Shown here piece after piece: positions 11,085 to 14,821 of a DNA stretch of 64,000 nt (position 1 is its first letter; each line of letters opens with the position of its first letter). The translations under genes and the position numbers were made by a program. This DNA comes from Cymodocea nodosa (taxonomy: Eukaryota > Streptophyta > Magnoliopsida > Alismatales > Cymodoceaceae). The stretch is from the NCBI GenBank assembly GCA_036874045.1, contig CM072341.1, positions 9,560,501 through 9,624,500 on the forward strand, written 5' to 3'. Below the pieces are notes generated by a model. That model did no database searches. It was not told the origin of the DNA and worked only from the letters and a program-made list of their open reading frames with translations.

Positions 11085-12524
11085 GTTACTTAAGTTATAC
11101 TGCTTCATTCAGCTTCCCTCCCATAGGAGGTATCAATTTCATTAACAGTTCTGTTGATATGGTTAGGTACTGCTTGCATTGGCAATCCTCTAATAGGTCT
11201 AACTTCCATTGATTCCTTCTGTCTAGGGGGTATATTTCTATTCATATTTTGATTTTAAATGGCAGCATTTCCAAATACAAGATCTAGACGATTGTTTAAT
11301 TGTTGAATTATCTTTTCTAACTTCTCTATTCTAGATCCTTATTCAATTAATGCTTCATAACTTATATTTTTGTCATTTATATTTTCTTTTCCTTAGAAAT
11401 TGTTGTTTCTCCATGATAAATTCAAGTGATTTCCCTAATTAGGGTTATAAGAATTTCCAAAGTTATCTTTCGGGTTTCTAGCATAAATAATATCTAAGTC
11501 ATTAACGTTTGCATTTTTTTCTACTAGTTTTTGATTTAATGATAACTCTTCTATTTTCTTTGTTAATTCAGTTAATTTAACTTCAAGCATAGTGCTTGAA
11601 TCTATTTTATGTATTCCCCTTAGCAATATTCTTTTATCTGTAATAGCTTCAACCGAGTTTTCCCACTGTGTAGTTCTTTTTGCAAAGTTTTCTAAATATG
11701 CCCATGTTTCTTCACTACATAGTTTTAAAAATCCATTCTGACAAGTAGATTCTAATAAAGATTTCGTTGAAACATTTATGCCTTCATAAATTATACCTAT
11801 TAATTATACTTTACACATTGCATGATGTGGACATTAAGTCAGTAAATCTTTAAATCTTTCAAAATATTTCTAAAATGATTCTCCTTGTTTTTGGCTACAC
11901 ATTAATATTTCCTTTTTCTTTTTAATTGTTTGATGTGTTGGATAATATTTTTCTAGAAAAATAGAACAAAATTCAGTCTATGCAGAAATTGAATCACGTG
12001 GCAAAGTATATAATCATCTCTTAGTTGTGTCTTTTAAAGCGAAAGGGATATATCTAAGTTTAATAGCATCAATACTCATGTTTGGCATTTTCATCATTTG
12101 ACAAACTTCGTTAAATTCTCTAAGGAAATAATAGGCATCTTCTCTTTCTAATCCATGAAAATGTGGCAATTGACTAATATAATTAAATTTCAATTCAAAC
12201 TTATCTCCCTCAAAGTTTGGCAATCGAATACATGAAGGTTCATCAACTAATTCAGGATACAGAATTTCCTCTAATGGTTTTTCTATTGGAGCAGCCATAT
12301 CTTCGTTCTCTTTTAAAGAAAGGTTAGCTACACTCCTAAAGATTTCGTTTAAGTCCAATTCAGAATATATTTCAGTACGCCTCTATGTTGAATAATACCT
12401 TTTGTAGCTCTTTTTCCCTCATTGTATTTTTGATCTTTTGTCTTGTGTGTCATTCCTCTGAATCTTTAAGAAATTCTGACATGTCAACTGCGTCCTCCCA
12501 GAATTCTAGTGTCATCTTTGTCAT
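11085..12524 (-). pseudogene. Gag capsid-type ORF located downstream of pol in Gypsy-2
   Basis: Minus-strand frame beginning at ATG 12524 (MTKMTLEFWEDAVD), with a frameshift near 12370 and several stops. It contains landmarks of the plant gypsy gag capsid region: LPHFHGLEREDAYYFLREF, DAIKLRYIPFALKD, LYTLP, then FERFKDLL, CPHH, IIYEGI and later NSYNPN, WRNNN. These belong to the capsid domain that normally precedes NC and protease. Here it follows integrase and precedes an F-box ORF, all in the same direction. I do not see a CCHC zinc knuckle in it. A TATA-like TTTATTTATAC lies about 100 bases upstream of the start. Alternative: the start of a separate truncated element, but no LTR or convincing primer site precedes it. 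Confidence 0.75.
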
Positions 12525-12534
12525 CGTGGAGTAA

Positions 12535-13250
12535 CGAAATGGAACGGAATTGCTCTGATTTCTACTACTCTAAGTTCTAAATGATTTTACGAATAATGCC
12601 CCCAAATCCTAAGTTTTAGTATAAATAAACCTTAAGTTTAGGCGGGTAATCGGGTCATTTTCTCGCGTAAACTCTCGCTCTCTCATCTATCTCTCCATAG
12701 AGTAACAGTTAACTCCACGAACTAAGTCCATGGACTTAGCTACAATACTTCATTGAGTTATAGTTAACTCAATTGGGTAAGTTCATTAACTTATCCTAGA
12801 CTCAACGGAGTAAGTTCATTAAGTTAAGCGTAACTCAACGGACTTTCCGTAAAATTATAACTAATAAAAATACTTATAATAATAATATTTACTTCGGTCA
12901 AGACCGAAGAATTTCCAATCTAACTGACTCTTATTTTTCTTTTTTTTCATCATTTTAGCATTTCGGTCAAACCGTTATATTCCTCGGTTGAACCAAAACT
13001 AAATACTCTCCTTTTTTTTTTCTTACTAGTTGAACCGATACTATGCTTCGGTAAAACCAACTTTTTACTTAATATAATATATAGATTTTTATATGTTTTT
13101 ACATTTTGGTCCGACCGATGGATCTGTTGGTTGAACCGCAACGATTTTTTTCTTTTAATATATGTTTCGGTAAAATCGATAATTTCTTTTGGTTGAACCG
13201 TGACTATGTTTAAATAAGGTTTTTTTTTTTTATATACTTAGAAAATTTCT
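12535..13250 (-). promoter_or_regulatory. Promoter-like spacer between integrase and the gag-like ORF
   Basis: Two sub-regions. From 13230 to 12890 (reading in the element's direction) there are repeated CGGTTGAACCG-type palindromic motifs, many degenerate. From 12860 to 12700 there are at least six copies of TAACTCAACG/CGTTGAGTTA-type repeats, the same as in the gypsy LTRs. Then come a TATA-like TTTATTTATAC near 12625 and ACTTAGGATTTG. The order repeat cluster, TATA, about 100-base leader, ATG matches the DNA in front of ORF3 in Copia-2. No primer-binding site adjoins it, so it does not look like a normal 5' LTR end. Confidence 0.5.
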
Positions 13251-13255
13251 TACTA

Positions 13256-14821
13256 AGTAAAGCTCGAGTAGTCATCTACTTTTACTTCTTCTATAATTCC
13301 AAAAGAACTTTTTGGTATCATCAAAATAGGTCTTAGTCTTTGTCCATTTACCTTAAATATATTTTAACTTTTAGGATTTTCAATTTCAATAACTCCATAG
13401 GAATAAATGTTTCAACTTATGTAAGGTCCTGCCCACCTAGATCTTAATTTTCCTAGATGGTTATGGAGTCTAGTCATGTAAAGATATACTTCTTGTCCTA
13501 TTTCAAAGGTTTTTGGAATAATTTTCTTGTCATGCCAAAACTTCATTTTCTCTTTTTCTCTTACAGTTTTCGAATAAGCTTCATTCCTAAATTCTTCTAA
13601 TTCAATTAATTGTCTTTTCTTGTTCTCGGTAGCTTGATTTAAATTAGTGTTCAGAGTTTTTAATGCCCAATAAGCTTTATGTTCAATTTCAACTAGTAAA
13701 TGACAACTTTTTCCATATACTAGCCTAAAAGGTGACATACCTAAGCTTGTCTTATAAGTAGTTCTATTTGTTGACATCATATTCCTCTTTGATATTCCTC
13801 CTATTTGTTGACATCTTAAACAACTTAAATAATATTTATGAGCATCTTTGAATAGTTTTGGCCAATAAAATCCAAATTGTAGAATTTTGGCAGCAGTTTT
13901 CCTTGAACCAAAATGCCCTCCACATGCTTAGTCGTGGCAGAAAGACAATATGCTCTTATATTCAGTTTCTGGAATACACTTCCTTAAAACCAGATCAGGA
14001 CATTTCTTAAATAAGTATGGGTCTTCCTAATAGTAATATTTTACTCTTGAAAAGAATAATTTCTTATCTTGTCTATTCTAATCCTTAGGTGTTAAACCTG
14101 TAACTAAGTAATTAACTATGTCTGCAAACCAAGGCATTGTGTTGATGGTCATTAATTGTTCATTAGGAAAATTATCCTTAATTTCTATATTTGATTTTCC
14201 TATTTGTAATATAGATAAATGATCTGCAACTACATTCTCACAACCTTTTTTATCTTTAATTTCTAGATCAAATTCTTGTAATAATAATATCCATCGGATC
14301 AATCTAGGTTTAGTCTCTTTTTTTGCTATTAGGTGTTTTAAAGTTGAATGATCCGTATATACTATCACTTTAGCTCCAATCAAATATGATCTAAACTTTC
14401 TAAGGCAAACACAATAGATAACAACTCTTTTTCAATAGTTTTATAATTAACTTGAGTATCATTTAAAGTTTTGCTTGCATAATGAATCACTCCAGGAGAT
14501 TTTTCTATCTTCTATCCTAGTACTGCTCCTACAGCAAAATCAGATGCATCGCACATTAATTCAAATGGATGACTCCAATCAAGTGCTTGTATTATAGGAG
14601 TAGAAATTAAGCTAGTTTTAAGCTTGAAAAATGCTTCTTTGCAATTTTTATCAAAGTTGAATGAGACATCTTTTAATAGATTAGTTAAAGGTCTAGCTAT
14701 TTTGCTAAAATCTTTAATAAATCTTCTATAAAATCTTACATGTCCTAGAAGTGATCTAATATCTTTTACTGATTTAGGTTCTGGTAGGTTAGAAATTACT
14801 TCTACTTTAGCTTAATCTGCT
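13256..14821 (-). pseudogene. Gypsy-2 pol, 3' part: RT end, RNase H and core-deleted integrase
   Basis: The minus-strand frame continues the RT from 43886 after removal of Copia-1 and one target duplication. RNase H follows, with CDASDFAVGAVLG-type sequence near 14560 and YTDHSTLKHL near 14360. It continues through RWILLLQEFD and the integrase zinc-finger end (CLRCQQIGGISKRN near 13800). It then jumps directly to the post-core segment (YKTSLGMSPFRLVYGK) and the C-terminal KLRSRWAGPY. The catalytic DDE core, about 200 residues, is missing. A 15-base direct repeat, CTATTTGTTGACATC, occurs twice at the joint (13764 and 13800). Several stops are also present. The frame ends at about 13256 after VDDYSSFT. 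Confidence 0.85.
14817..14821. other. Target-site duplication of Copia-1 (left copy; right copy 43886-43890)
   Basis: CTGCT precedes the TGTTGAG terminus at 14822 and CTACT follows the CCTACA terminus at 43885. These are 5-bp duplications with one transition, the length expected for copia integrase. The Gypsy-2 RT reading frame continues in register across the insertion when Copia-1 and one copy of the duplication are left out, which independently supports the boundaries. Confidence 0.85.

Follow-up and report, generated by a model that had tools for sequence, protein, structure and literature searches.

Must the gag gene of a Ty3/Gypsy retrotransposon precede pol? The question is raised by a heavily nested stretch of the Cymodocea nodosa genome, the window (C13:9560501-9624500, 64,000 nucleotides), in which a preliminary description placed a capsid-type (CA) gag open reading frame (ORF) of the element Gypsy-2 downstream of its integrase (IN). 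The gag-before-pol order is treated as a fixed rule, and we report here a many-copy group, with some long open frames, that breaks it. In the genome searched (374.6 Mb, 28 contigs), a Ty3/Gypsy group is ordered LTR-PBS-(knuckle-PR-RT-RH-IN)-(gag)-LTR (LTR, long terminal repeat; PBS, primer-binding site; PR, protease; RT, reverse transcriptase; RH, RNase H), with gag as a separate ORF in the four lineages in which its position was readable. The proposal that CA lies 3′ of IN as a family trait and is absent from the 5′ end was thus borne out. These are still LTR retrotransposons, with a new Ty3/Gypsy architecture that is unexpected and more general than first noted.

In the window copy of Gypsy-2, domain scans together with the sequence confirmed the minus-strand order of RT, RNase H, integrase, CA, F-box gene, purine tract and 3′ LTR given in the preliminary description. 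Its parts are as follows.

5922..7877, minus strand: 3′ LTR (TG...CA), inserted into Gypsy-1 between its RNase H and IN regions
7878..7892, minus strand: purine-rich tract adjoining the 3′ LTR, from the sequence
7893..9836, minus strand: 3′ untranslated region, containing the tract TATGGGGGGGAGG near 9190
9837..10880, minus strand: F-box gene (F-box plus F-box-associated domain; PF00646, E 1e-11), with 4 stops in the window copy
10957..11010, minus strand: palindromic spacer motif (AACTCA..GTTGAGTT) preceding the F-box gene
11105..12395, minus strand: CA, a capsid-type gag without zinc knuckle, with 10 in-frame stops in 11105-12382
12396..12524, minus strand: remnant of the ORF3 start, joined to CA through a deletion of ~3.1-3.2 kb (sibling-copy comparison)
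12525..13252, minus strand: spacer separating IN from ORF3 and containing palindromic motifs
13253..14099, minus strand: integrase, with ~430 bp of the core missing relative to the copy L029 (PF17921, E 6.1e-9; domain span 13927-13253, minus strand)
14100..14811, minus strand: C-terminal part of RT plus RNase H (PF17919, E 1.6e-10; PF17917, E 3.5e-13)
43886..44760, minus strand: N-terminal part of RT, split off by nested insertions (89.7% to L029)

The window CA was 28% identical to a Morus gag over 283 residues (E 3e-32), and Morus supplied the one protein matched when a Gypsy-2 CA piece was searched against a protein database. PF03732 matched one of three scanned pieces of the window CA weakly (E 0.052) and the other two not at all, because stops cut the frame; the CA of the sibling copy L021 matched the same family at E 4.6e-8. 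In the F-box gene of the window, the FBA_1 match (E 7.7e-4) fell slightly under its cut-off.

A DNA search with the region returned 6311 first-look candidates, of which 40 were scored, the window itself included; the other 39 were 92–94% identical. For 10 of these 39 sibling copies, ~10 kb per side was read, and the window pieces were then mapped onto them. One sibling copy, a single insertion, is ordered LTR-NC-PR-RT-RH-IN-ORF3-CA-F-box-LTR (NC, nucleocapsid). Two copies (L009/L010 and L019/L020, two labels per copy) ran from LTR, leader and knuckle region through RT, IN and spacer to CA, F-box gene, 3′ region and LTR, and a third (L011/L012) had the same order with RNase H, the RT end and IN lost. 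An IN fragment or the spacer preceded CA in L025 and L021; the remaining five of the ten, with no correctly oriented IN or spacer match upstream of CA within the stretch read, were uninformative. No CA lay between the LTR and the knuckle region, a gap of ~100 bp, in any of the three sibling copies whose 5′ end was read.

In the four copies with both sides matched (L011, L019, L021 and L025), the spacer and CA are separated by ~3.1-3.2 kb containing ORF3, a long ORF that is interrupted in these copies. ORF3 is weakly like PF20167, 'putative plant transposon protein' (best E 1.6e-4, in L009, where the score was 22 bits and the cut-off 45). The first ~43 codons of the window CA ORF (12524-12396) correspond to the ORF3 start of the siblings, not to gag, and are fused to CA because most of ORF3 is missing there; judged against these copies, the window copy is a deletion fusion of the ORF3 start to CA. 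Both the gag start formerly set at 12524 and the promoter-like DNA near 12620, formerly assigned to CA, belong to ORF3. Precise intron splicing was rejected as the origin of the window junction, which has one extra base relative to an AAAG/GT + ACAG/ join.

The target-site duplication (TSD) was examined in one copy, L009, which starts with TG at C2:18538102 and ends with the dinucleotide CA at 18559205, with CTAAC immediately outside both ends (a perfect 5-bp TSD). Its two LTRs agree at 94.5% of positions across a stretch of 544 bases and at 92.6% across a second, partly overlapping one of 1492, and a purine tract adjoins the 3′ LTR. The copy spans 21.1 kb, of which ~5.5 kb is other DNA inside the 3′ untranslated region. 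A search for an LTR or primer site ahead of the capsid gene, which would have marked a separate element, found none in this single unit. Since the copy is TSD-flanked as one unit, a separate truncated element is ruled out as the source of its CA.

The window also contains the 5′ ends of two related elements, in which CCHC knuckle motifs, here as elsewhere, were identified by eye.

60908..62666, plus strand: Gypsy-3 5′ LTR, whose end is corrected from 62634
62706..62724, plus strand: Gypsy-3 PBS-like sequence TGGTGCCGTTGTCGAGGAA (earlier, TGGTGTCG at 62675)
62805..64000, plus strand: Gypsy-3 5′ coding region, from a knuckle-like motif (one cysteine changed), running on into PR-RT-IN in L029
2806..5921, plus strand: Gypsy-1 5′ coding region (CCHC motif, PR, RT, RNase H), truncated by the Gypsy-2 insertion

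As first described, Gypsy-3 coding begins at the knuckle-like motif and Gypsy-1 coding at its CCHC motif; the Gypsy-3 motif lies ~100-130 bp past the primer-site-like sequences. No CA match was found upstream of the Gypsy-1 coding region (1-2805). Downstream of the window, in L029, Gypsy-3 reads PR-RT-RH-IN-ORF3-F-box, with RT/RNase H upstream of integrase (PF00078, 3e-23; PF17919, 3.1e-18; then PF00665, 3.9e-15) and CA missing. At L029:6646-7136, the palindromic block that elsewhere precedes CA is followed by the F-box gene with no CA between, as if the cassettes could be deleted by recombination at the palindromic motifs. Having lost its CA, this copy was set aside as proof of a 3′ CA; CA is present in the Gypsy-3-type copies of L027 and L028.

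The RT DNA of Gypsy-1 is ~70% identical to that of Gypsy-2/3, with synonymous sites near saturation. In two of the three Gypsy-1 copies read downstream (L030 and L031), CA directly follows IN, with no ORF3 or F-box gene between (L031 gag: PF03732, E 2.4e-21), and in the third (L032) other repeats break up the element, among them an opposite-strand Gypsy-2-type CA/F-box block. L034, the 5′ part of the L031 copy, has a PBS-like site and an ORF of 396 amino acids (aa) opening shortly ahead of a knuckle motif that has one cysteine changed; CA gave no match in it (best E 0.36). L033, the intended 5′ part of the L030 copy, proved to be other DNA and was uninformative. The Gypsy-1 CA found no protein in the protein database search and weak capsid matches only in the PDB (best E 0.2). 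As an observation apart, Gypsy-1 is interrupted near the integrase start both in the window, by Gypsy-2 at 5922, and in L032, by similar-looking LTR sequences; an insertion target preference for this site is possible.

The Morus gag, used as a query against the genome, gave 99 scored matches, 55 at 33–37% identity (group i) and 44 at 28–32% (group ii), and one copy per group was read (L036 type and L037 type). In both, the IN end is followed by an uninterrupted gag with CA and a CCHC motif (L036: 451 aa, PF03732 E 1.4e-18; L037: 470 aa, E 4.6e-17). The 5′ parts of these copies, L038 and L039, have a PBS-like site and then a Pol ORF leading from a CCHC motif into PR. In L038 this ORF stays open for all 520 aa read; in L039 it is interrupted. 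No CA match was found in either part. A knuckle motif is therefore found at both ends of these lineages. The 'split gag' proposed at first accordingly holds for Gypsy-1 and Gypsy-2 and fails for the L036 and L037 lineages, where the 3′ gag unites CA and knuckle and a knuckle also stands 5′.

Integrase matches to the L036 type numbered at least 150 (150 scored). For 57 of the 99 matches to gag, the IN matches listed included one on the same strand no more than 12 kb away; group i contributed 47 of its 55 and group ii 10 of its 44, these ten assigned from coordinates. In each of the 57, the nearest IN lay 5′ of gag, at a distance of 428-637 bp, and never 3′ of it. Of the 150 listed IN matches, 16 sit in open frames of 1488-1491 aa, 13 of these 16 matches having no internal stop; judged by length, the frames should be the whole knuckle-PR-RT-RH-IN. 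None of the eight 5′ ends read (L009, L011, L019, L034, L038, L039 and two within the window) had CA between primer site and NC, and the knuckle begins the 5′ ORF, as had been claimed. A PBS matching TGGCGCCGTTGCCGGGGAT with at most 4 mismatches, a pattern that we take to be typical of Athila, was present in five of seven sequences scanned (L038, L034, L023, L039 and window 62706); the same scan found none in L009, L011 or the Gypsy-1 site of the window.

In the gag proteins, a C-x2-C-x4-H-x4-C motif was seen by eye in L036 and L037 and was absent from the CA of Gypsy-1 and Gypsy-2. The alignment likewise placed the knuckle in L036, L037 and Morus and showed it missing in Gypsy-1/Gypsy-2, though the flanking WRNHPN-SWRN block is kept. 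The 3′ gags of the four lineages are 35–41% identical to one another and 27–33% identical to the Morus gag, and PR pairs across lineages are 39–53% identical; one old origin of the 3′ gag position, followed by vertical descent, would fit these levels. The Morus gag, known here without its element, has a tail resembling the stretch before the protease, as in gag-first elements.

Taken as a whole, the explanation that we consider highly probable combines this gene order with a 3′ relocation or duplication of gag and a separate Gag message. The gag gene would have been relocated or duplicated to the 3′ end before the four lineages split, the 5′ CA then being lost. Genomic RNA would be translated into knuckle-PR-RT-RH-IN. 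Because the ORFs are separate, gag needs its own start, and Gag would have a message of its own. The likeliest candidate is a subgenomic RNA produced by splicing, as for the gag of BARE, and to this route of 3′ gag expression we give about an even chance. The Gag:Pol ratio would then be set by RNA level and not by frameshifting or proteolysis, and the Pol knuckle would bind Pol to genomic RNA for packaging. More tentatively, and as something possible rather than probable, we envisage a whole clade with reversed gag and pol, in which a knuckle-led Pol is made from genomic RNA and the capsid is a separate gene behind it, the work of CA and knuckle is divided in two lineages, and one family carries a selected host F-box gene, perhaps degrading a silencing factor.

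Other explanations were weighed against this relocation. A nesting or recombination artefact, with the CA/F-box block derived from another truncated element beside or inside Gypsy-2, would suit a heavily nested region whose window copy has a deletion fusion, but is left with next to no probability by the complete TSD-flanked copy, by the recurrence of this block behind IN or the IN spacer in several copies, and by an IN-gag distance that hardly varies over all 57 informative pairs of two further lineages, together with the same order in Gypsy-1. The reading of the block as a nested fragment is ruled out by the TSD outside the whole unit and by this constant spacing. Replacement, in which an ancestor lost its 5′ CA and gained the gag of a different retrotransposon lineage 3′ of IN, deserves more weight, although we regard it as unlikely. 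Athila families are reported to recombine often (PMC2410132; for this and all papers cited, statements refer to the portions of text available to us), and the L036 and L037 types, with a knuckle at both ends, look as if they had two gag sources. However, the 3′ gags diverge about as much as, or somewhat more than, PR (the identities given above), which fits old vertical descent; a foreign origin of gag may predate the common ancestor of the four lineages.

The 3′ gag might also encode a decoy that acts in trans, or a capsid fragment of the restriction type, like Ty1 p22 as far as the available part of its description goes, with structural Gag supplied by other, canonical elements. The lack of a knuckle in the CA of Gypsy-1 and Gypsy-2 and the loss of CA from L029 while the rest was retained agree with such a role, but the 3′ gag of L036 and L037 consists of CA plus knuckle and a gag-first arrangement was seen in none of the 57 informative matches, making a decoy very improbable. 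As to how the 3′ gag is expressed, ORF3, CA and the F-box gene might each have a separate internal promoter, formed by the palindromes and TATA-like sequence ahead of them, which we consider doubtful. A 12-base half-site motif (at most 2 mismatches) is enriched: the window has 23 occurrences, and 20 shuffles averaged 2.5. The palindromic motif (AACTCAACGGACT/AGTCCGTTGAGTT) is found repeatedly, in the LTR as well as upstream of ORF3, CA and the F-box gene, and TATAAAT precedes CA in L021. No TATA-like pattern match was found upstream of gag in L036, L037 or L031, so an internal promoter is unlikely as a general mechanism; it would be plausible for the Gypsy-2 CA and less so for the other lineages.

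Several points weigh against the relocation of gag and its separate expression as proposed here. A single genome was searched, and the argument for a single origin consists of identity levels, with one outside gag (Morus) and no tree. A related element in L022, ~70% to Gypsy-1 in RT, was not placeable among the lineages, and 42 of the 99 matches to gag lacked a partner among the IN matches listed and hence were uninformative. Stops occurred in all Gypsy-2 CA copies scanned, and the Pfam knuckle PF00098 matched none of the L036, L037, L038 and L039 ORFs scanned. The expression model is an inference; a crude scan with no shuffled control found splice-acceptor-like sites upstream of gag in L036, L037 and L031 and none before CA in the Gypsy-2 copy L021.

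Known systems provide partial parallels. In foamy viruses, gag is 5′ of pol and Pol is made separately from Gag, from spliced RNA; the separation resembles that proposed here, but gag stays 5′ of pol there. BARE is a Ty1/copia element with gag first. Its spliced RNA encodes Gag alone, uncoupled from Pol, but BARE differs from the present elements in being organised as a single ORF (PMC3735527). In Ogre, an intron between its two ORFs is spliced out (PMC6317226). The same source, a survey of plant elements, classed 8453 Ty3/gypsy elements as GAG-PROT-RT-RH-INT, with GAG unidentified in 159, and always removed elements with an unexpected domain order as likely mis-predictions. The elements described here share with Ty3/Gypsy the RT/RNase H upstream of IN, the LTR pair, short TSD, PBS-like sites and purine tract, but depart from the GAG-PROT-RT-RH-INT order in four lineages with gag 3′ of IN.

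The present elements resemble Athila/Tat (OTA) elements in the PR-RT-RH-IN order, the PF03732-type gag, the TGGCGCCGTTGCCGGGGAT-like PBS, the third ORF of Gypsy-2/3 (weak PF20167) and the G-rich tract before the 3′ LTR. Arabidopsis Athila, however, has gag in ORF1, pol in ORF2 and env in ORF3 (PMC2410132), whereas in the present elements IN precedes gag and a CCHC-type motif opens Pol; Gypsy-1 has no third ORF between IN and CA. Env-like, antisense and other extra ORFs are found between pol and the 3′ LTR of plant elements (PMC7264820; Retand, PMC11963269), and those of the env-like, Retand TRP28 and Grande kinds are likewise family-conserved genes in that position. The difference is that the extra 3′ ORF here is gag itself, with no 5′ CA found, and the available portions of those two papers include no gag case. 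No description of gag 3′ of integrase was recognised in the literature searched, which lay mostly outside subscription journals, and a prior description is possible. If our reading is true, no mechanism requires the gag-first rule, separate messages can set the Gag:Pol ratio, and classification pipelines may discard such elements. The group would also be a natural test of whether packaging can rely on a Pol-borne rather than a Gag-borne knuckle.

Between subfamilies, CA and the F-box gene are under purifying selection. Omega for CA, between the window and Gypsy-3-type copies, was 0.34, 0.41 and 0.42, and for the F-box gene against L029 it was 0.32–0.38 in 12 of 15 comparisons (0.48, 0.49 and 0.95 in the rest). 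Within Gypsy-2/3, values were 0.21–0.41 for RT and 0.18–0.42 for IN; PR gave 0.24, 0.56 and 0.96, and ORF3 0.15–0.54, with one at 0.84, three at 0.04–0.09 near saturation and three not computable. All these pairs have a common reference and hence are non-independent. Within families, CA omega was 0.40–1.73, from few changes, and codon-position counts among Gypsy-2 copies were not decisive. Differences between the rows compared, some of which combine two copies of a locus, amounted to 6.4% in CA, 6.3% in RT, 6.6% in RNase H, 8.9% in the F-box gene and 9.7% in IN; the spacer and the 3′ region differed more, by 14.6% and 12.5%. With stop changes left out, shared changes were less often non-synonymous than singletons, both in CA (64:39 against 121:37, p 0.017) and in the F-box gene (69:45 against 113:41, p 0.034). 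Stop changes were shared in 10 cases and single in 10 for CA, and shared in 4 and single in 11 for the F-box gene; shared stops of this kind would be expected from recurrent decay of cytosines or from descent from broken parental copies.

The F-box gene, which Gypsy-2/3 carries along with ORF3, is also present in Gypsy-3 (L029:7166-8275, plus strand) as a 370-aa open frame and was presumably captured from the host. A protein database search with the F-box protein found none, and its host origin was not traced; an NCBIfam scan of three proteins gave a sole hit, F-box-associated and below cut-off. The palindromic motif sites are listed below.

Window 6177-6241, 7264, 9285, 10968, 12712-12844, 61227 and 62333-62377; L021:8700-8890: palindromic motif

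Further matches to this motif were seen in other repeats near 16211 and 42744. Elsewhere in the window, two ORFs (160 and 241 aa; 24230-25504, plus strand) lie downstream of a copia pol and look like its extra 3′ ORFs, with no Pfam match at E 0.01. Behind copia-type pol, 22809-23728 and 38017-38817 (plus strand) resemble the Gypsy-2 3′ untranslated region at 75–77% over 800-900 bp.

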